Source: Liolophura sinensis
Lineage: Eukaryota > Mollusca > Polyplacophora > Chitonida > Chitonidae
Direction of reading: 5' to 3'
Length of the DNA stretch: 64,000 bases
NCBI RefSeq assembly: GCF_032854445.1
Contig: NC_088306.1
Span: 25,331,764-25,395,763 of the forward strand
The notes beneath the pieces are model-generated. The model was not told the DNA's origin, made no database searches, and was given only the letters and a program-made list of their open reading frames with translations. Both the position numbers and the translations under genes were made by a program. Positions within the stretch are counted from its first letter, which is position 1; each line of letters opens with the position of its first letter. Below, piece by piece: positions 2,666 through 57,692 of this stretch.

Positions 2666-3710
2666 ACGAAGATGAACAAAAGACACGTCGCACAAACCTT
2701 TAAATACTCGAGAAGACATTTACTGAGAATGGACGGGGGCAGTGTGGAATAAATCTCACTCTACGAACCGACTTTTTGCGCCTCTATTTCCATGTGTGTT
2801 GTCAAGGTGCCTGTGCACTAAAACTTAGACGATACTTTAAAATGAAGGAAACAACTCGTACGTTTTACATCAACATCTCCTGGTCATTCCTGGAACACAT
2901 GACAGATGGCAGATAATCACACATCACAAATGTTTTCGAATATTTGATTTTTAATTACAATATGTAAACAAAATAAGTAAATATACTTGCCTATCAATGG
3001 TTATGAGATAAAGCTGGAAAGCTTGGTATACTCCATACCATTGTCATGCAAAAAGATATGTCTACGTACCACTGTGTGTGTGTCTGGAATACTTATCCGT
3101 TTTCTGCCAGGGTTACATGACTTACAAACAGTAATGATTTTGTCCTCTTTCCTGGTCTTTGTGTCAGAAAACGCTGCTTGACATGATGCTTGACAAACAA
3201 CCCGGTGGTTCGATAGCCAGTGTTCCATTCCCCTCCCCCCCACCTCCCCCCAACACCCCATACCACCCCCCATCCCCCCACCCGTCGTCAGTCTTAGTTC
3301 AACAACTGTGTGATTGAATGATTTTCATATTGGTAACTTTGGGATCTAGCCCTATTAGCTTAATGTCACTCATTTACTTATTTGTTTAATATTCCTTTAT
3401 TATTCATGCAGTCAAATATGCATTCCTTTGTCCCGCCACTTCAGACACTGAGCCAACTTCACCCCGAATATATCCGTCTCTATGTCACTTTTATGTGCGG
3501 GAGTATGAAGGCATTTCTTGGATTGTACTTCAACATTCTAGAGCCTTTCATCTCGTCACCGTTGATGAAGCGTTACCTTAGCCTTTGGAGCTCTTCAATA
3601 AATTTGCATAAAATGATTACAGTGTTACAGAAAATAACGATATTGCGATCAGAGGAAAAACAGGAGTGACAAATGACGCAATCGAACCTCAAATTGTGTA
3701 AGTAATTGAA
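2666..3710. other. Unassigned DNA with a C-rich tract
   Basis: No gene or family is recognised. It contains the strongly C-rich stretch listed separately. Open frames on both strands around 3000-3280 are created largely by that tract. Confidence 0.45.
3226..3291 (+). repeat. C-rich low-complexity tract
   Basis: Runs of 4-7 C are separated by short spacers over about 65 bp on the plus strand, so the minus strand has four or more G-runs and could form a G-quadruplex. No coding meaning is inferred; the Gly/Trp-rich frames opposite it follow from composition. Confidence 0.8.
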
Positions 3711-3930: not shown

Positions 3931-4835
3931 GTTCTTCCGAGACACATCGTGTCAAGTGAACTTAACAAACTGAATGTAGCAAAACTATGACAGAAAGAAA
4001 GTATTTAGCAAGTTATTCTGAAAAATTTGAGAGCCGATTTCAAACAAGATCAAAATTCTTGGTTAAGAGAGGACCATCTAAATTAGAATCCAGAACATTG
4101 AATGTAGGCTATACACATTACCTTGTTCGTTTGATTGAAAATTAATTCTTTATAAATAATTATTTATTTATTGTATAATGACTATATATGTCACGGAGGA
4201 AAAATGAAAATACTGACCAATATATCGTATATTACATTCTCTCTATACATTCAGCAAAGAGCAAAATCTATTCTATATAGAAGGTATTCCCTTACATTAC
4301 ATATATTCGGCACATAGATATACACATACATACATGCTCACCAACGAAACAAGCACACAAAATTTACACACAAAATACGTTTCACTAATACTATGTCAAT
4401 ATGTCAGATGCGTATGTATAATACACGGACACGCACGTCTGCTGTTTGAACTCAGAAGAAAAGAACAGAAAGATCTAGTAGTCGAATGTGAATTCATGAA
4501 GTCATTCATGTGTGCTTCCATTTACTTTAGATGAAATGTCGTTTTCAACACTGTTTCAGTCCCATCAGAGCAAGGACTCTTTATAGCAGATCGGTTTTAT
4601 TATAGACATATCTATAGCGCTACCTGAGTAAAACCCCATGCCAAATTTATCAGGCGTTACTTCTATGTTATAGTATATACTTATTACTGTATGGCAGTAT
4701 TATCCCATGTCCTTGGCTCCAACGGATGGGATAGAAACATTTTTACGTTTACCACATGATCCCATTTTGGAGGGGCAAAAGACTCTTACATAATCGTCAG
4801 TCAAACTGGCAGCTGGTGTAGTGATTTATTCATAC
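3931..4835. other. Unassigned AT-rich DNA
   Basis: No gene, array or recognised repeat. Several short runs of alternating purine/pyrimidine occur (for example CACATACATACATG near 4324). Confidence 0.45.
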
Positions 4836-4837
4836 CC

Positions 4838-5033
4838 CGGTCGCTGAGAGTTCAAGTCCAGCTCATGCTGACTTCCTCTCCGGCCGTAGTTGGAAGGTCT
4901 TCCAGCAACCAGCGGGTGATCGTGGACTTTCCCAGGGCTCTGCCCGGTTTTCTCTCGCCATAATGCTGTCCGCCGTTGTATAAGTGAAATATTCTTGAGT
5001 ACGGCGTAAAGCACCAGTCAAATAAATAAATAA
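4838..5033 (+). mobile_element. SINE family 1, head partly lost
   Basis: From the B-box region (GAGAGTTCAAGTCCAGCTCA, 4846-4865) onward the copy is nearly complete: CTTCCTCTCCGGCCGTA, the CCCAGGGCTCTGCCCGG segment, GCCATAATGCTGTCCGCCGT, the core TAAGTGAAATATTCTTGAG and a CAAATAAATAAATAA tail. The 5' part of the tRNA-like head, including the A box, is missing or too diverged. Confidence 0.9.
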
Positions 5034-5189: not shown

Positions 5190-8100
5190 GTTTATTTCTG
5201 AAATCTAACCTTCAAGATTAAAGTCACAACCCTTGATGACAATACCCCTATCCCTGAGCAATGAAGAAAGGCAAAACTACGTTGCTTTTTGACACTGAAC
5301 ATTTTTTCCGAGTGGCATAGTGTAATCGATTGTCAAAAAAAGACGAAATCCGAACAACAAGTGACAATGTGTCAGTGTAAGGGAGACTGAAACACTTCGC
5401 GGTGGATTATACTGGGGTAATTTAAGTGGAAGATAAACAGGGTGAAACCGACGTAAAGTTTGTCACAAAATCAACCCGTTGACATGAAGCCAATTTCAAG
5501 ATTCATTGAGCAACACAAATTGAATTTCCACAAATTTCACCCAAACCAAGTCGTGGTAGAAGGGGACAAATTTCAGCCATTCTGCCTATGCCACCTTTGA
5601 TTGCTCAGATCGATGTGCGTTCTTGGATCTTCGACTTCATCAGCAAAACGTGCAGTGGTCTCTGTGCGGTTACAATGGGTGCTCATACCGTGGGTAGGAC
5701 ACAGCTTAACTAAGACAAAAGCGCCCTGGGCCATTCCATTCGGTGCGGGAAAGGCCCTAAAACATTCCAGGAAGGACACAGTATTGAATGGCACTTGCGG
5801 CATGGGATATGAGAAGAAACGTCTTTCTGAACGATATGGATCGGCTTTGTGGAGTGGAAAATTCGAGTAGCCCAGTGGTCAGTTTCTTGACCTTCGTACC
5901 TCGACCCATGTATGACTCATAAATATTGATGCAGACTGGGCGATTTGTGTCCCACATACACATCAGTTATAGTGACTGCACTGAATCCGCCGAGTGATTA
6001 GGCCAAATTTCATAACGGACTGATCCAAGGCCCAATACCGAGTATCATCCTGTGTAATAATTTGACACATGAAATTGACGGGTTGCCACATTACATTGCT
6101 TTAAAATCCATTTACAGTACAATGTTAATCTGTCACATGAAATACACTTCATGAGTAAAGGACCAAATCTGGATCTGTTTATCTGCTTCGGGTTTTCGTC
6201 TACTCATAAAACTGCCTGTCGTCAAACTTCACAAATCAAATTAAAATAGTAAGGATTTTTTTAACACAACGCAATTTCCCGAAAGCTTCAAGTCATATAT
6301 GGTAGTGTTTGGGTTATTTTGACTTTATATAGCTCTCTAAAGTTTTACTTTTGTTTATAAATACTTTAAGCATTTTCCAAACCAAAAGTATTCATTCACT
6401 GGAGTTATATTTTTAATGGATCTTGACATTAAGAAAGTTAGAAAACAAATCAATTCTGACGGTAATGTGCGCTAACCCATGACATTGTAAATATGGTTCT
6501 TTGGCAGGGCAAAGTCAAAAAATGCATAACTTCACTTTTCTATCACCGAATTTGGAAAACCCCTTATTACAGGCGTGAGTAGTTAATGACATGCTGACAC
6601 TCACCTGTTGGAGAGAAAAAAAATGTATTTTAGCACGCATTGTATGAAGACAGGGGCTTTTGTTTGTTAAATAATGTGATCCATTTACGTCATATGCGTA
6701 TGTGTTTTCTGTTCTTATATAGTATAGTATTACCACTCAATAGTCTATTTCTCTGGCCATGTTGTATATATATTCTGTAAAATCATCCACCGCCAAGGTT
6801 GCCCTCCGCTGGCGACACGTAACACTGCCTGCTCTACACACATAGATATTGGACGTCCACAAGACAAAGGAGAGAGTATTTTAACCCTTAATGCTAATCT
6901 GCATAAGCTTGTTCTCGGCAATAAGAATTCATTTCCTCGTCAGATAAAGGTGGAACCTCTTAGTATCTTCTCCGTTACGGTGACACCTCATTATTACAAG
7001 ACAAAAGACAAGATCGCCATGACTTCACAAACTGCGAGGGTTGCTCACGTGAATAATCCATGGCATTCTTAAGAACAAGAAGATCACCTCATCCAATGAG
7101 AACAACAACAACAATTTTGCTCCCTTACAGCTTGTCACATCTAAATTAGTGTAATTCTTAAAGAAGACGCCATTGCAAAATGCCCAAATAACGTTGAAAG
7201 CAAAACGGACAAGAAAATGAGCGAGTTGATTAAAACGAAAATTTTGTAATGAAACGTAAAGTGGCGGCCATTAATATAATGTGTATATTAATTAAAACAA
7301 GCATAACCTAAAAACATCTCTGGCAACCTGTAAGTTTTTAAAATTTTATCTCTAACTAACAAAGCGTTGCTTTCCCATGCACTTCGTACCTTTACCGAAG
7401 TAACCATACTACTTGTGTTTCATCTATGAACCAGTGATCAAATTAATTCTCCAGCCGACAAGTTTTGTGACAGGAATTGGATAACGAGGCAATTAAGTTA
7501 CATCTCACGCTTTCAGTTGATGTCTCGCTTGGTCGATAACGCGAGATTGTGCGAGAAAAAAATGGCTAGCTAGCTAATTTGTTTAAGAACAAAAACCTTT
7601 CAAGGAAATATGTCCGTTGTGACTGCTGGAGAATTTACTTCAGACAAACAGCCATTGGGGTGTAGCGGTGTTTTATACCAGCATAGCAAGAGACAAATGT
7701 CCCCTGCAACGGATTCCGTTCACCATCTACGGATTGCTGTGTTTATTGGCGCAGATTTGCTTGCATCAGACAGGCGATGACAAGGTTGGCTTAGCATACC
7801 GAAAGTAATCATTACCAGTGTGCTTCCTGTTTGAGCACGGGAGAAATCGATCGGTGCCATTTACGGAGGGAAGTGTTAAGTAGAAAATTCGGTGATTGGA
7901 CCGTTCATTCCCAGACCTAATTATAGACAAAAAAATGATAGATTACCCGTTACAATCTTTGGATACTCGGTCAAACATCCGATTTGAATGGGCGAATTAT
8001 GTGAGAAATAAATGTCACTATGCACCAGTGGATTGTTTTAATGTATCTATGTTATTCAATACTAAAAAACTGTCCATGTATAAACTAAAAGACATTTTGA

Positions 8101-15865: not shown

Positions 15866-17311
15866 AGCTTGAGATACCAGATTGGTAAGTCGAAGTGATG
15901 GGTGCATGTAGCTTGAGATACCATAATGGTAAGTCGAAGTGATGGGTGCTTGTAGCTTGAGATACCATATTGGTAAGTCGAAGTGATGGGTGCTTGTAGC
16001 TGGAGATACCATATTGGTAAGTCGAAGTGATGGGTGCTTGTAGCTTGTGATGCCATATTGGTAAGTCGAAGTGATGGGTGCATGTAGCTTGAGATACCAT
16101 ATTGGTAAGTAGAAGTGATGGGTGCTTGTAGCTTGAGATGCCATATTGGTAAGTCGAAGTGATGGGTGCATGTAGCTTGAGATACCATAATGGTAAGTCG
16201 AAGTGATGGGTGCATGTAGCTTGAGATACCATATTGGTAAGACGAAGTGATGGGTGCTTGTAGCTTGAGATACCATATTGGTAAGTCGAAGTGATGGGTG
16301 CTTGTGGCGTGAGATACCATATTGGTAAGTCGAAGTGATGGGTGCTTGTAGCTGGAGATACCATATTGGTAAGTCGAAGTGATGGGTGCTTGTAGCTTGT
16401 GATGCCATATTGGTAAGTCGAAGTGATGGGTGCATGTAGCTTGAGATGCCATATTGGTAAGTCGAAGTGATGGGTGCATGTAACTTGAGATACCATATTG
16501 GTAAGACGAAGTGATGGGTGCTTGTAGCTTGAGATACCATATTGGTAAGTCGAAGTGATGGGTGCATGTAGCTTGAGATACCATATTGGTAAGTCGAGGT
16601 GATGGGTGCTTGTGGCTTGAGATACCATATTGGTAAGTCGAAGTGATGGGTGCTTGTAGCTTGAGATACCATATTGGTAAGTCGAAGTGATGGGTGCTTG
16701 TGGCTTGAGATACCAGATTGGTAAGTCGAAGTGATGGGTGTTTGTAGCTGGAGATACCATATTGGTAAGTCGAAGTGATGGGTGCTTGTGGCTTGAGATA
16801 CCATATTGGTAAGTCGAAGTGATGGGTGCTTGTAGCTGGAGATACCATATTGGTAAGTCGAAGTGATGGGTGCATGTAGCTTGAGATACCATATTGGTAA
16901 GTTGAAGTGATGGGTGCATGTGGCTTGAGATACCATATTGGTAAGTCGAAATGATGGGTGCATGTAACTTGAGATACCATATTGGTAAGTCGAAGTGATG
17001 GGTGCTTGTAGCTTGAGATACCATAATGGTAAGTCGAAGTGATGGGTGCATGTAGCTTGAGATACCATATTGGTAAGTCGAAGTGATGGGTGCATGTAGC
17101 TTGAGATGCCATATTGGTAAGTCGCAGTGATGGGTGCATGTAGCTTGAGATACCATATTGGTAAGTCGCAGTGATGGGTGCATGTAGCTTGAGATACCAT
17201 ATTGGTAAGTCGAAGTAATGGGTGCATGTAGCTTGAGATACCATAATGGTAAGTCGAAGTGATTGGTGCATGTGGCTCGAGATACCATATTGGTAAATCG
17301 CAGTGGTGGGT
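15866..17311 (-). repeat. 44-bp minisatellite, about 33 copies
   Basis: The unit on plus reads roughly GCTTGAGATACCATATTGGT, AAGTCGAAGTGATGGGTGC, then A/T plus TGTA. Copies differ by recurrent single-base variants (GCATG/GCTTG, ATACC/ATGCC, TTGAGA/TGGAGA, GTCG/GACG), and no indel was noticed. Because 44 is not a multiple of 3, each minus-strand frame cycles through all three phases every 132 bp. The consensus has no stop in any minus phase, so three overlapping frames of 482-504 codons arise (15812-17323, 15823-17271, 15849-17363). They start and end in unrelated flanks. I read this as non-coding. A local block starting with the TGGAGATACC variant recurs exactly 352 bp (8 units) apart at 16001 and 16353. 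Confidence 0.95.
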
Positions 17312-17554
17312 GGCTTTCTTCATATACCAACCAGTATAAACCCGTGGTATTCTTGATGCACATTCATTGAAGCATTTATCCTGTCCACCTAATACTGATG
17401 TGTGACAGCAGGAACTGAACTGGGCTAGGGATTAGAATGGAGTTTGTATGTGAGGTGGGCTGAGTTTTAGCTCGAGTGTGTCTATTTTTTTGGGGGGGAA
17501 AAGGCGCGCTGTTATACTTGTGCGCTTGGTGTTTGGCATAACGCCATACGCCCA

Positions 17555-23925: not shown

Positions 23926-23934
23926 ATTTTTTTT

Positions 23935-23990
23935 CGTCGTCATATGACTGAAAAATTGTTGAGTACGACGTTAAACCCCAAGCACTCACG
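23935..23990 (+). mobile_element. SINE family 2, 3' end
   Basis: CGTCGTCATATGACTGAAAA, ATTGTTGAGTACGACGTTAA, ACCCCAAGCACTCACGCAC is the 3' end of a second tRNA-headed SINE family. The same end occurs at 52760-52795, 54836-54860 and on minus at 57612-57665. It abuts the truncated retrotransposon that starts just after the T-run at 23993-24003. Confidence 0.85.
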
Positions 23991-24030
23991 CACTTTTTTT
24001 TTTTACTCGAGTGTGATTCGGTGTCTTTTC

Positions 24031-24440
24031 GGTGGGCTGCAAAATTCCTCCAAATGTACCATAGGTCTAAACATATTTATAGAAATCTGCAGTTATTTGG
24101 GTGTCCCTTTGGATGAAGAAAACACTAAAGGCGCGGCTACCAGAGTTACATTTTAAGCCTTGAGCTTGATACAGAAGATATGGTAGTGAGGATACCTGAA
24201 TTAAGATTAACAACCCTCAGGTCACTATGTTTTGGAAATGATTAATTCTCGCAAGGCAACGCTTCCCGTCACTGTTAGGTTCGTTGAAGTTTGTTTGCAG
24301 AGCTGTACGTCCTGTTCGCTCTTTTGTGAGGCGTTTAATTTCTCTGACGAGTAAAGTCGCTAATCCCCGACATTTTATCTGTTTGGGCAAAGAGCGAAAG
24401 ATGACTTTAAAATGTGGCCTTCTTTTTTTCAAAAAAAAAA
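24031..24440 (+). pseudogene. Reverse transcriptase C-terminal fragment
   Basis: Read across three frames. Frame of 24031-24156 gives FGGLQNSSKC, then YLGVPLDEENTKG and ATRVTF followed by a stop. Frame of 24162-24236 gives ELDTEDMVVRIPELRLTTLR. Frame of 24275-24423 gives LGSLKFVCRAVRPVRSFVRR, then LISLTSKVANPRHF. This is the order expected just downstream of the YxDD active site in Ngaro/DIRS/Gypsy-type RTs (palm end, LGxxLxxxK-T-G-xT, thumb/connection). The catalytic YxDD itself is not readable: the expected spot, just before 24031, is degraded. At least two frameshifts and a stop make it non-functional. Confidence 0.85.
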
Positions 24441-24491
24441 ATTAACGGCGTGTCTGTATTTTTGGACAAGTATTAGGAATGTAATACAGCC

Positions 24492-24970
24492 ATGCAGTTA
24501 TTCACAGATAGCGTAGGGGGTGAGGCCAAAGGCTTTGGGGCTTTTTACCAAGGCAAATGGACCTATGGTATTTGGCCGGAAAGTTGAATTTCTGAAGGTC
24601 TTTTATCGGGTATAACAGGGCTGGAATTTTTTTCCGATATATGCTGTAGTGCATATTTGGGTAGCCAGTTTAGCAAGTATGAAAGTGATTTTTCGCTCGT
24701 ATAATCAAGCTGTTGTAAACATTATTAAACATAATAAATATCATGACATCTCGTTCAAGTAATGTTATGGCATTGGTCCCTAATTTTACCTTAAAATGCC
24801 TTCACTTGAACATTTTGTTTAGAGCGGAACAAGTATCCAGATTGAAAAATGTAATAGCTGATGTAATTCCCGATTATAGTGGCAAAAGTTCAGAATTTTG
24901 GTTCCTTGCGCCGACGAATTTCCTACTGTCATCCTTCCCGAGGTCTGGCAGGTCTCAAAGAGTGAGCTCA
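24492..24970 (+). pseudogene. RNase H domain of the retrotransposon, decayed
   Basis: It begins QLFTDS (first catalytic Asp codon at 24507), then GFGAFYQGKWTYGIWPE and a stop. After that GLEFF supplies the conserved Glu. A T-run frameshift leads into IYAVVHIW and then FRSYNQAVVNI, where the usual Asp-Asn pair of this motif reads Tyr-Asn, so a catalytic residue appears lost. Another frameshift gives SRSSNVMALV and LNILFRAEQV, LKNVIADV, then SEFWFLAPTNFLLSSFP, the usual RNase H exit of these elements. It would have degraded the RNA strand during cDNA synthesis. Confidence 0.85.
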
Positions 24971-24980
24971 GAAACTGATT

Positions 24981-25870
24981 GATGCGGGCACCTCTCAAAA
25001 CACGAGATTGGTTGATGCCAATGCTCTGTCCTCGCTTCAAAAATTCAGAATAGAATTCAGTTGAGATAGTGATTTGCCTCTTTCTGCTGAGCACTTAGTC
25101 GGGTGTGTTAATTAACAGGGACGAGTGTGTGAAGCCGCATCTACTGTTGCTTCATACTTGTCAAGTATTGGTTATCAACACAAGATGTTAGCAGTGACCG
25201 ATACTGCTCAGGCATATGTACTGCACAAAATGTTAGAAGGCATGAAATATTACTACCTCAGGTTGATAATAGAGCACCGATAACACCAGATATTCTCATA
25301 AGGCTCTCTCATGCACTGGATAAGGTGTACCCCTCGTCAAATGAAGCCTCGTTATTTAAGGCAGTATTTTCAGCTGCTATTTTCGGTTTCTTTCGGGTGG
25401 GCGAACTAGTGCCTGCAACTAAATCTCCCAGAGACAGGCCACTTAAGTTAAGTGACATTTCTGTTCTAGATATAAAAATGGTAGCAAATGCCTCGATGCT
25501 GTGATCAGGTGTTCAAAAAGAGATCAAACAGAAAAATCCCGCACATTGGGTGTAACTCAAGGATTGAACTGACCTATATGTCTGATTTTATGCGAATTAG
25601 ACCGCAGAATGGACATCATCTTTTTTGTCATATTGACACACAATATCAATTTAGTGCCGTTCTCAGTAAAGCCATTCAGTTGTTTTTTAGGATACGACGA
25701 GAGGCGATTTAAATCGCACTCATTTCGAATAGGGGCGACTACGTCAGCGGCTAAGTGTAGAATGTCGACCGACACCATTCAACTATGGGGACGGTGGAAA
25801 TCTGCTGTTTGTCAAAAGTACATCAGAATAAACACAGACAGTCTAACAACGGACATGACTCCATGTATTA
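24981..25870 (+). pseudogene. Tyrosine recombinase of the retrotransposon, decayed
   Basis: This replaces the DDE integrase in this element class and inserts circular DNA by strand exchange. The N-terminal core-binding domain is in frame from 24981, with stops at 25062 and 25113, and reads ASTVASYLSSIGYQHKM. The frame then shifts near 25256 to PQVDNRAPITPDILIRL and FGFFRVGELVP, giving the first catalytic Arg (codon 25394), and stops at 25502. Further frame changes lead via MRIRPQNGHHLFCHIDTQ to SHSFRIGATTSAA, with His (25717) and Arg (25726), then LWGRWKS (Trp in the usual His/Trp place) and QKYIR with the nucleophile Tyr (25819). All signature residues seen are present but the frame breaks at least three times. 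Confidence 0.92.
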
Positions 25871-25970
25871 ACAGTCATATTAACCATCCCCACACCGTAG
25901 GGTTGCGCGTTGCTGTTTTTCATGTGTTGTGTAACCAATTCTTCTTCTTTTCTCTCATTTTATTGATTAG
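25871..25970 (+). promoter_or_regulatory. Probable intron between recombinase and hydrolase ORFs
   Basis: Just upstream of the hydrolase frame is a pyrimidine-rich run (TTCTTCTTCTTTTCTCTCAT, 25940-25959) followed by TTATTGATTAG, a canonical 3' splice site ending at 25970. The open hydrolase frame starts directly after it. The recombinase reading frame ends about 100 bp upstream. No donor is fixed: several GT dinucleotides at 25875-25935 are possible. Ngaro elements are known, from memory, to carry spliceosomal introns. Confidence 0.5.
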
Positions 25971-26498
25971 ATATTTGGATGGTCGGGTCGTCATACCTGT
26001 AATTTAGGATTCGACAAAATGGGGTTCCGTCTTGTCTGGCTTGGTGGGCGGGATAGGAAGTGGGGTTCTTTGAGACCGACGGTTGAGCAGACGTTATGTT
26101 GTACAGCGCCCCTGAGTATTTTATTTATGCATATGGATTCAGATGATTTGGTTGGTATGAAATGTGGTGACCTATGCAACAGGATATCAAGTATTTTGCA
26201 TATGCCACGGATGCCATATTGTGTTTTAGTATGGTTTGATATATTTCCTCTTTTGTTCTGGTTTGGAGCTAACGACCAGGAAGCTGTTGAGAGCATTGAC
26301 AGAAGGGTCAGTAGATTTGGTGCTGCCACAGTTCTAAAGTGTGGTGACAGGGCCCTCAAACATGCGCAGATCTCTCATACAGATGTTAGTTTGTGCCTTT
26401 TTGACGGTGGACATTTGTCAGCTCTCGGAAATAATATTTTTCTTAACGTAATGTGTGGCTTGGAAGCTTTTATTCAAAGCAACGTTGATGTTTTTTAA
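25971..26498 (+). CDS. SGNH-hydrolase-like ORF at the 3' end of the retrotransposon
   Basis: Open for 175 codons from the putative splice acceptor (first Met at 26019, giving 159 residues). The layout fits the GDSL/SGNH esterase fold: IFGWSGR with a Ser in the block I position, then GFRLVWLGG, DDLVGMKCGDLCNR (the position of the block III Gly-Asn-Asp loop, here Gly-Asp), and near the C-terminus CLFDGGHLSALGNN. The last carries the Asp-x-x-His of the catalytic dyad (Asp codon 26403, His 26412). The protein ends soon after (GLEAFIQ). The Asn of block III and the flanking Gly of block I are not clean, so activity is doubtful. Its role in the element is unknown. It is the only part of the element with an unbroken frame. 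Confidence 0.72.
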   Translation: MFGWSGRHTCNLGFDKMGFRLVWLGGRDRKWGSLRPTVEQTLCCTAPLSILFMHMDSDDLVGMKCGDLCNRISSILHMPRMPYCVLVWFDIFPLLFWFGANDQEAVESIDRRVSRFGAATVLKCGDRALKHAQISHTDVSLCLFDGGHLSALGNNIFLNVMCGLEAFIQSNVDVF

Positions 26499-26644
26499 AC
26501 TAATTTCTCAGTGCATTTTACACAGTTAGATTTGGGTGTGCATTATGGTTGAGGTATACGTGGAGACATATCCCTGTTGCGGAATTCGGGCGGGTGGATG
26601 GGACTCCCTGGTAGGGACTATAGTATAACCGACAGACACGTGTG

Positions 26645-26794
26645 GTCCCACAACGTGGGTTTGTGTGGACCGGCTCAGTGTGTAATGTTTGCTCGATGTT
26701 TTCCCGACTGACATGGGCGGTCCCACAACATGGGTTTGTGTGGACCGGCTCAGTGTGTGATGTTTGCTCAATGTTTTCCCGACTGACATGGATG
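26645..26794 (+). repeat. 75-bp direct repeats at the retrotransposon 3' end
   Basis: Two adjacent 75-bp copies starting GTCCCACAAC(G/A)TGGGT, then TTGTGTGGACCGGCTCAGTG and ending TTTTCCCGACTGACATGG, differ at about five or six positions. A degenerate third piece, ending CTCCCGAGAGACATG, follows at about 26848-26866. Each copy includes a small palindrome (CCCACAACGTGGG). Tyrosine-recombinase retroelements have split direct repeats rather than LTRs, so these are good candidates for the 3' repeat region. Being a multiple of 3, the duplication also opens chance frames on both strands. Confidence 0.85.
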
Positions 26795-26900
26795 GTCCTC
26801 CCTTTAGTAAATGCAGCGGTCCTGTTGAAGAGTATCTTTTCTACTCGATGGTCTCCCGAGAGACATGTAAGTCCACCGGAGTGAGTCCCCGGGGAAAACA

Positions 26901-28990
26901 TGTAAGCTTGTCATTATATGTAGTTGACGGCCTACACTAAAACTTGGTCCGCCGGCTGGAAGTCAATTTTAGCGATGTATTAGTATAATACAAGTCGTGG
27001 TCTTGTTCATCCAAAAATCAGTGGTTCGAGTGGTTTTCATGTTTTTGTGTTAGGACAATCTCATTAAAATAAACATCAGCTAAGGACGAAGGGATTATAA
27101 GCTTCGCAAGTTGAAACTTGAAATCAGAAATTACAGTCGCCCAGTTAAGTACAAATAGTTGTCTTACGTAGACTGTTAGGTCTTACTTTTCCAGTCGGTT
27201 GGAAAAGGTATGCATTGTAGTTGTTTCAAAAATATGTGACGAGCATTTTGTCAAGCTGTTCCTGTTGTAAGTTCCTGATTCATTAGTATGTAGAACTGTT
27301 TTGCAAGAAAAGGTAATGAGTGTTACATTGTCCATTTTTACACATGCCACATGTATGTACGAGTCAAATCTGGTCTACGGTCGCGATTGTATCGTCTAAA
27401 GAATTTACAATTGCCATGTAATTCCTCTTGGAAGAGGTTCAGCTTACTTTTACAATCAGTTGTAAACTCAGTTCTTGGGTCTACAGTCGATTGTAGCTAC
27501 AATCTCTTTGCTCAATTCTTCTGCGCCTTGAATAGATGCACGAATGATTGAGGTTAGCGCTACATTTGTAATATTTCAGCTATATTGTTGTGGAGGACAC
27601 AGATGTGGCGTTTGGCGTAAAATAAAGACATTCAAAATACAAAAAGGTCACAAGGCTGTTTTAAAACTTTGAATATTTAATTAGTGTTGAAACATAGAGA
27701 TATGCTATAAGAGCTATAGGAGCTGACTCAGTTCAGTGGTTTGTAACCACTATTTAACTGTAGAATAATCAAGGACTGTGTCAAATAACTGATATGTGAC
27801 TTAGCCACATTTGGCCAAGGTGTACACTGCCAACAGAGATATGCAGGATGCCATACGGGGCGGACTAGGTAGCAATACTCTCATCTAGATTCAAATTCTG
27901 TGTCGAGTGGGTGCATGGTTTGAGCGGAGAAGTTTACCACTAAGCACAGGATGTAGGGTCGATCACCTTTATGCTCCTCCTGGTGTCATTTGCTCCTGAG
28001 ACGTGGCAATTGTCGTATACTTACCTCAGTAGGCTGCCGTTTCACGAAAAAGTAGTTTACTCCTATAATCGTGCTCTTGATTATGGTGAGATGAACTATA
28101 TAGACAGAGCTCTGGAACAGGCTGAGCTGGAGCACAGTCAAAATGTTTCATGGACAATAAGCAGTGGTGTATATCTTAGAATTCGAGCAAGAATCCATGA
28201 AAATCTTAGTTCAATTAAATATCTTATTTCAGAACCAAGGACCATGTGAATCAAGAATAGCCTACACTTGAGCAGATATGTCGTATATTGACTTATGGGT
28301 GTTTGATATATTATAAAAATAACATACGTATAATCATATTGCAGAAAGGCGCAAGTGATAATAGAATGCTGAGTCCGGAAGATGCCGCCAGACCTCGCCA
28401 AATAGCCCCTAAAGCTTATGATATAAGGGGTGTCCAAGTCAAGAGGAGTTAGACAAAACAAAGGTTAAAGGTCTGAGCGGAAAGTGTTCAGGTCACTGGG
28501 GTATGTAAGAAACGTCTGGGTGCTAAACATATAGAACACGAATAGAATGACAGGCAAATGACAGCTTTAATCACTACGCAAATGTATCCAAGAAAAAAAG
28601 ATTGTGAGAGATAACTGCAACATTACACAAAGTGCTGTTTTTTTCTTTGGATAAAGCGCGATATATCAACCCATCTCACAGCCACTGATTTTGTGTTTAC
28701 AATCGTATATATCACACATCATCGCCCTTGCAGCTTTATTGCGTGATACAGAATATTTGAGAATCCTCAGAGTTGACTTGATAATCACATGCCAGACGGC
28801 ATACTGTGTAATTCAGGAAGAAGCATGGAACCGCAGAAGTAACATCGTCCCAGACTCGCTATAAGAGAGCAAAATGGTCATGCATTGTGTTTTTATTGTC
28901 GAAGTGTATGGACAAAAGCCAGGCTTTCTTTACCCTGTATCAGGCTTTTGGCCTTCTTTACCCTATATTTTGTTATGTTTTAAGGACTTC
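26901..28990. other. Unassigned DNA after the retrotransposon
   Basis: No gene is recognised. It may include the retrotransposon's 3' end, which I cannot place. A series of self-complementary words (CAGTCGGTTGG, CAATCAGTTGTAAAC, CAGTCGATTGTAGCTACAAT) occurs at 27193-27505. An AATAAA polyadenylation-like signal lies at 27621-27626. Confidence 0.4.
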
Positions 28991-44912: not shown

Positions 44913-44965
44913 CACAAGATGGTAACAAAGAATGAAGCATAATGGCTTCACACCGCATCGGTCCG

Positions 44966-46276
44966 ACTACGCTAGTCGCTAACAGCGCCACTCAGCCAAC
45001 ACACCCGACTACGCTAGTCGCTAACAGCGCCACTCAGCCAACACACCCGCCTAAGCTAGTCGCTAACAGCGCCACTCAGCCAACACACCCGACTACGCTA
45101 GTCGCTAACAGCACCACTCAGCCAACACACCCGACTATGATAGTCGCTAACAGCGCCACTCCGCCAACACACCCGACTACGCTAGTCGCTAACATTGTCA
45201 CTCAGCCAACACACCCGACTACGATAGTCGCTAACTGCGCCACTCAGCCAACACACCCGACTACGCTAGTCGCTAACAGCGCCACTCAGCCAACACACCC
45301 GACTACGCTAGTCGCTAACAGCGCCACTCAGCCAACACACCCGACTACGATAGTCGCTAACAGCCCCACTCAGCCAACACACCCGCCTAAGCTAGTCGCT
45401 AACATTGCCACTCAGCCAACACACCCGACTACGCTAGTCGCTAACAGCACCACTCAGCCAACACACCCGACTATGATAGTCGCTAACAGCGCCACTCAGC
45501 CAACACACCCGACTACGCTAGTCGCTAACATTGTCACTCAGCCAACACACCCGACTACGATAGTCGCTAACTGCGCCACTCAGCCAACACACCCGACTAC
45601 GCTAGTCGCTAACAGCTCCCCTCAGCCAACACACCCGACTACGATAGTCGCTAACAGCGCCACTCAGCCAACACACCCGACTACGATAGTCGCTAACAGC
45701 CCCACTCAGCCAACACACCCGCCTAAGCTAGTCGCTAACATTGTCACTCAGCCAACACACCCGACTACGCTAGTCGCTAACAGCGCCACTCAGCCAACAC
45801 ACCCGACTACGCTAGTCGCTAACAGCGCCACTCAGCCAACACACCCGACTACGCTAGTCGCTAACAGCGTCACTCAGCCAACACACCCGACTACGATAGT
45901 CGCTAACAGCCCCACTCAGCCAACACACCCGCCTAAGCTAGTAGCTAACAGCGCCACTCAGCCAACACACCCGACTACGCTAGTCGCTAACATTGTCACT
46001 CAGCCAACACACCCGACTACGCTAGTCGCTAACAGCGCCACTCAGCCAACACACCCGACTACGCTAGTCGCTAACAGCGCCACTCAGCCAACACACCCGA
46101 CTACGATAGTCGCTAACAGCGCCACTTAGCCAACACACCCGACTACGCTAGTCGCTAACAGCGCCACTCAGCCAACACACCCGACTACGCTAGTCGCTAA
46201 CAGCACCACTCAGCCAACACACCCGACTACGCTAGTCGCTAACAGCGCCACTCAGCCAACACACCCGACTACGCTA
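44966..46276 (+). repeat. 42-bp minisatellite, 31.2 copies, with higher-order structure
   Basis: The unit reads ACTACGCTAGTCGCTAACAG, CGCCACTCAGCCAACACACC, CG. 42 is a multiple of 3, so one plus frame (ATG 44942 to TAG 46127-46129, 395 codons) encodes TTLVANSATQPTHP repeats. The CCTAAG (Pro-Lys) variant starts units at 45050, 45386 and 45722, exactly 336 bp (8 units) apart, and again at 45932 after a 5-unit block. Units within the first two 8-unit blocks match in order. Variants are almost all amino-acid-changing (Ser-Ala to Ile-Val, Ser-Pro, Cys-Ala), and a CAG-to-TAG change stops the frame three units before the array ends. There is no signal peptide, and an in-frame TGA lies at 44933. Read as satellite DNA, not a gene. 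Confidence 0.95.
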
Positions 46277-57611: not shown

Positions 57612-57692
57612 AGTGAGTGAGTGAGTGCTTGGGGTTGAACGTCGTGCTCAACGGTTTTTCAGTCATATGACGACTAAGGAATCCTTCATTTG
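57612..57692 (-). mobile_element. SINE family 2, 3' end fragment
   Basis: GTGAGTGAGTGAGTGCTTGG, GGTTGAACGTCGTGCTCAAC, GGTTTTTCAGTCATATGACG, ACTAAGGAATCC on plus is the complement of the family 2 end (CATATGACTGAAAAATTGTT, ACGACGTTAAACCCCAAGCA). Confidence 0.88.

Follow-up and report, generated by a model that had tools for sequence, protein, structure and literature searches.

A probable dead copy of a Ngaro-type retrotransposon with a hydrolase-like reading frame in the mollusc Liolophura sinensis

Broken coding pieces resembling reverse transcriptase (RT), RNase H, tyrosine recombinase (YR) and a hydrolase follow one another in a 64-kb stretch of Liolophura sinensis DNA (the window), which raises the question of whether they belong to a single mobile element and, if so, of which class. 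Very likely, the segment 24007-27080 stems from a low-copy retrotransposon of the Ngaro type (DIRS order) and is a dead copy truncated at its 5' end. In this copy the C-terminal part of RT, RNase H, the recombinase, an SGNH/GDSL-like hydrolase, 75-bp repeats and a 3' tail make up one decayed unit. Its coding pieces are short, lie on the plus strand and switch frame repeatedly, as seen in a three-frame translation of 24000-27000 and in the ORF list; stops and frameshifts break the genes. The Ngaro class appears supported, and is read here from domain layout, spacing and repeat structure.

The order of the four coding segments, as claimed by the initial annotation, was confirmed with the proteins of two better-kept relatives, L029 (located on C101) and L032 (on C2), which match the window element collinearly in both BLASTP and tblastn. 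When their forward ORFs of at least 60 aa were compared with the whole window by tblastn, 13 matches were obtained at E<=0.01, and 11 of them follow the expected order on the plus strand within 24150-26495 (E 3e-14 to 0.008). The reversed window, used as a control with the same L029 and L032 ORFs, gave no matches. The other two are one weak opposite-strand match at 5633-5728 (E ~1e-3), repeated in the two relatives. It was considered as a second recombinase fragment and dropped as a chance match, since the matching L029 frame is not the recombinase frame.

None of the ten window pieces scanned against Pfam matched a family at E<=1, so the domains had to be named from relatives. PHROGs returned just two matches (E ~0.09), both to families of unknown function, and no confirmed relative was found in IMG/VR scanned with the hydrolase and recombinase alignments. 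Of the Pfam profiles proposed as a check, RVT_1 was passed by a sister copy located on C1 but by no window piece, and Lipase_GDSL_2 stayed below the cut-off in relatives of the hydrolase.

The RT remnant (24007..24442, plus strand) is spread over three frames. An RT had been claimed and is indeed present, but just the part 3' of the YxDD motif survives. It matches the L029/L032 ORF in tblastn (24150-24227 and 24269-24442) and is homologous to the C1 copy (L009, reversed) from position 3519. The 243 aa RT ORF of L009 scores 36 bits against RVT_1 (E 7.6e-9, cut-off 29.6), and the L032 RT comes near but remains below this cut-off (27.3 bits). A PDB sequence search with RT returned just unrelated proteins (E >=0.67). 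The next segment (24477..24701, plus strand) contains the LFTDS motif and one in-frame stop and matches L029:3812-4453 (BLASTP E 2e-8; tblastn over 24483-24617). We take it to be RNase H from its motif and its place, no profile match having been obtained. The region 24719..25280 of the same strand, in several frames, probably comprises the remainder of RNase H together with the recombinase N-terminus; its portion 25116-25280 matches L029:4658-5041 (E 5e-7).

The catalytic part of the tyrosine recombinase occupies 25265..25860 on the plus strand with its motifs in different frames (BLASTP E 3e-10; tblastn over 25265-25477 and 25533-25676; alignment). Legible in the window are the first Arg (FRVGE), the HxxR box (HSFRIG), GRW and YIR, the signature residues of a tyrosine recombinase. 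The HxxR...GRW...Y pattern, which was composed after the sequence had been inspected, occurs once in the window (25717-25821) and in none of 300 random first-order Markov windows. The four-row recombinase alignment has S-x-R-I, G-R-W and Y-I-R conserved in every row; the C1 copy has Pro in place of the HxxR His. No match was found between window 25573-26004 and L029:5016-5483, an ORF which ends before the HxxR box (the box is located in the next piece). Of the 20 matches produced by a recombinase query of the genome, 16 do not belong to the four copies described below.

Sister copies were sought in the assembly of ~609 Mb, where copy counts are lower bounds. That this genome is molluscan is borne out by eight successive Haemocyan_bet_s matches on C8, a domain found in none of 14 control genomes; the last exon there matches hemocyanins of the mollusc type in the PDB, KLH1 among them. 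A DNA search with 25300-25850 found 6 matches, distributed over four places (the window, C11, C6 and C1), and one with 24024-24700 found 4, one each in the window, C11 and C1 and the last in a short piece on C7. C6 is missing from the second result because its copy lacks the stretch covering the RT end and RNase H. The initial annotation would have been undermined if the segments had proved never to adjoin one another in genomic copies; instead, the C11 (L007) and C1 (L009) copies keep the full segment order, and the C6 copy (L008) does so too apart from the loss of the RT-end/RNase H stretch and of part of the recombinase. Over the blastn-alignable stretches of the coding part, K2P distances to the window are 0.182 for C11 (2277 sites), 0.166 for C1 (1769) and 0.191 for C6 (1219). 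Frames are broken in the C11 and C1 copies and the C6 copy carries deletions; the family looks old and inactive. A remnant of the 3' end is also located on C9.

The most complete copy is L009, which, in reversed orientation, starts with the A repeat at 1479, followed by a gag-like ORF, RT, RNase H, YR, hydrolase, the 75-bp array and a tail ending at ~6092. Its gag-like ORF matches that of L032 (E 1e-7). The window and C11 copies both start just 3' of the RT YxDD motif and, to judge by these few bases, may descend from a common truncated ancestor.

A short dispersed repeat fragment with a T run at its end (23934..24003, no strand assigned) abuts the 5' boundary of the remnant and lies outside the element. 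It is found at window positions 23934-23994 and 57612-57680 (61-69 bp) and at L007 4573-4633; the last, a 61-bp piece with 97% identity, interrupts the recombinase region in the C11 copy. Possibly, this fragment is a very short mobile element.

Two tandem arrays were noted elsewhere in the window. One, with a 42-bp unit in ~31 copies (44963-46276), is accompanied by an open frame of 397 aa at 44936-46129 (plus strand) built of 14-residue repeats of the type PTTLVANSATQPTH, and may be a coding mucin-like repeat. The other, with a 44-bp unit in ~33 copies (15866-17312), has a strong excess of G over C, and all three of its reverse-strand frames are open for ~500 aa.

Querying the genome with the hydrolase protein gave 19 matches at 16 places, four of which belong to the window family. 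Six of the other twelve were inspected: in L029, L030, L032 and L033 the hydrolase is preceded by ORF pieces of RT and recombinase, and these four form a second, better-kept family, the RNase H part being missing from L030. L031 and L034 contain no RT or recombinase ORF of at least 110 aa. Split repeats were not seen in the inspected stretches of the second family. L029 and L032 are 96-98% identical over ~6.1 kb (L029 2573-8707) and 88% identical over the preceding 2 kb. This identity reaches past the Ngaro-like ORFs and takes in reverse-strand ORFs, one of which has a YNDD motif and resembles, by eye, the RT of Penelope-like elements; in the three pieces scanned against Pfam, no RT was named. 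The shared stretch is either a large duplication or a composite unit.

The direct repeats noticed earlier at the 3' end proved to be 2.3 copies of a 75-bp tandem unit (26629..26798, plus strand). The unit has 30 genome matches at 5 places, namely the four element copies and the C9 remnant, which means that the array goes with the element. The number of units varies, being larger in C11, C6 and C1 than in the window. On C9 the array comes after the stretch that separates A2 from the array in C11 and before a diverged version of the element tail. In the window the tail, identified with B1 of a split direct repeat, occupies 26810..27080 on the plus strand and is common to L009 (reversed, to 6092) and L007 (to 5633). 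The element was indeed found where it had been placed (24005..26900), but since 26810-27079 is also present in sister copies, its end was moved ~180 bp further, to ~27080.

The A repeat was found at the 5' end of the C1 (L009) and C6 (L008) copies; it was not found in the window, nor was A2 or B2 found after the window tail, and the L009 stretch has no second A repeat. In C11 the tail ends at L007 5633 and an A repeat follows 4 bp on (5637-5915, 79% identical to that of C1), after which come a stretch of ~470 bp, a 75-bp array and a second tail (L036 628-813). This corresponds to the B1-A2-B2 order of split direct repeats, which emerges from the sister copies taken together and not from any single intact copy. 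The window copy ends at most ~10 bp from the point where B1 would join A2, and the simplest reading is that it lost A2-B2 through recombination between B1 and B2. The array itself appears to lie in the B repeat. We regard it as rather unlikely that the array served as an annealing or recombination platform replacing precise B1/B2 repeats, with A2-B2 lost by repeat recombination in the way solo LTRs arise.

The ~470-bp stretch of C11 (L007 5915-6382, between A2 and the array) recurs on C9 (L048, reversed, 4446-4845), also before the array, and is unmatched in the C1 copy. With this stretch in place, C11 may possibly carry a second copy in tandem that has lost its middle. In the C6 copy the 75-bp array passes directly into ~1.9 kb of a 31/62-bp satellite, found instead of the tail (L008 5478-7001, reversed; L037 3097-5024).

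As the window copy is truncated, inverted terminal repeats were looked for in L009 1479-6092 (reversed), the most complete copy, and no inverted repeat joining its ends was found. The sole inverted self-match at E <0.01 is a 26-bp palindrome at ~L009r 5910-5935, inside the tail and unpaired with the other end.

These observations bear on the class of the element. RT/RNase H is followed by a tyrosine recombinase on the same strand, as in Ngaro, and an ORF located after YR occupies the position known from amphibian Ngaro, its SGNH label being sub-threshold. Between the RNase H and YR matches lie ~520 bp in the window and ~500 bp in L029, a distance that the remainder of RNase H and the beginning of YR would take up; judged by this spacing, the earlier claim that no methyltransferase-like domain is present stands. 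Taken with the hydrolase after the recombinase, the split direct repeats seen across copies and the lack of an end-to-end inverted repeat in L009, this argues for Ngaro over DIRS1, as initially proposed; neither of the DIRS1-like traits, room for a methyltransferase (window, L029) or inverted terminal repeats with an internal complementary region (L009), was found. Split direct repeats are also a property of PAT elements, and in a Caenorhabditis briggsae lineage a PAT element was described, in the accessible part of the report, to have acquired a Ngaro-like look by losing the methyltransferase domain (PMC4157794). A PAT-like or DIRS1-like origin with loss of this domain is nevertheless unlikely here: both families in the genome have no room for the domain, and an SGNH ORF after YR is given as a Ngaro trait in the available sections of PMC9210276.

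The hydrolase-like ORF is located at 25976..26495 on the plus strand and matches L029:5670-6275 (tblastn E 3.5e-14; alignment). Its block I (VGSS, 25976-25999) lies in a different frame from the open remainder (26001-26495). The window version thus has GSS in another frame and DSDD for GGND and retains DGGHLS, while its relatives, inspected by eye, carry GSS, GGND and DGVHLS. The Lipase_GDSL_2 matches of L029 (E 0.04), L032 (0.0032), L033 (0.003) and L030 (0.24) are all sub-threshold and, coming from one family, are not independent; the L031 piece gave no match to this profile. PDB sequence searches with the hydrolase returned unrelated proteins only (E >=0.67). The structure predicted for the window hydrolase from its single sequence was of low quality (pLDDT 48), and two structure searches, uninformative at such confidence, placed no SGNH hydrolase among the best 50 matches listed.

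The SGNH-type label is a tentative one, based on sub-threshold Pfam scores, catalytic blocks recognised by eye and the place of the ORF after YR. With profile scores of this kind, no PDB match by sequence and an uninformative model search, the product could in principle be some other alpha/beta protein. We consider this very unlikely: the relatives carry the three blocks, Lipase_GDSL_2 is the sole family listed for four of the five hydrolase pieces scanned (all four from one family), and the ORF has the same location as the SGNH ORF of Xenopus Ngaro in the part of PMC9210276 that describes it. According to the same part of that paper, Ngaro elements are known to carry an SGNH ORF, and the initial annotation was wrong to call such a passenger unusual. 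The notion that remnants of a recombinase element, of another retroelement and of a hydrolase adjoin by chance in a region rich in other repeats, with broken frames, can practically be dismissed, as it is contradicted by the same order in C11, C1 and (with a deletion) C6 and by the second family.

Ngaro elements pass through a circular intermediate, from which they integrate, and the same route is assumed for the ancestor of the window copy. An intact element would be transcribed and then copied into DNA by its own RT/RNase H, and the split direct repeats, arranged as A1...B1-A2-B2, would be used to rebuild both ends. The DNA copy would then close into a circle, which the tyrosine recombinase would insert, with no DDE integrase taking part. 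The product of the hydrolase ORF may act as an accessory protein, perhaps in membrane association, the role put forward for LINE esterases in the sections available of PMC3905857 and PMC5408684.

Both the Ngaro class and a hydrolase passenger were already known; what is added here is a low-copy family of a mollusc that carries a hydrolase-like ORF, together with another family of this genome that is better kept. For Ngaro without a methyltransferase domain and for the amphibian SGNH ORF, the sources cited are Goodwin and Poulter 2004 and Poulter and Butler 2015. Ngaro-like elements without this domain, the amphibian ones with an SGNH hydrolase ORF after YR, are treated in the accessible part of PMC9210276. 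There, DIRS-53_XT and DIRS-54_XT of Xenopus tropicalis resemble the window family in having gag-like, RT/RH, YR and SGNH ORFs and no methyltransferase; DIRS-53_XT has split direct repeats A1...B1-A2-B2, while none were found in DIRS-54_XT. Unlike these two, the window copy is 5'-truncated, dead and devoid of A2-B2, and its 75-bp array before the tail has no counterpart mentioned for them in that part of the paper.

Ngaro elements have also been reported, in the portions available, from molluscs: 53 instances in Lottia gigantea (PMC4157794), and low copy numbers in bivalves and in the gastropods L. gigantea and Pomacea canaliculata (PMC10294476). These share class and phylum with the window element, and those of PMC10294476 its low copy number as well, but, unlike it, they are given no hydrolase ORF in those portions of the two papers. 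A literature search covering titles or abstract openings, and few subscription papers, met no molluscan Ngaro with an SGNH ORF. SGNH/GDSL-type esterases occur, according to the accessible parts of the reports, in other retroelements as well, namely CR1/L2/RTEX LINEs and Penelope-like elements (PMC3905857) and bdelloid Vesta LTR elements (PMC5408684). All these belong to other classes and have the hydrolase in another position; the LINE esterase is part of ORF1, unlike the window hydrolase located after YR. The LINE esterases do not cluster with the other GDSL ORFs considered in the available part of PMC5408684.

Overall, the understanding of the class is unchanged. The finding suggests an old origin and a wide distribution among animals for the arrangement known from amphibians, with the hydrolase placed after the recombinase, and both families constitute comparative material on the function of the hydrolase.
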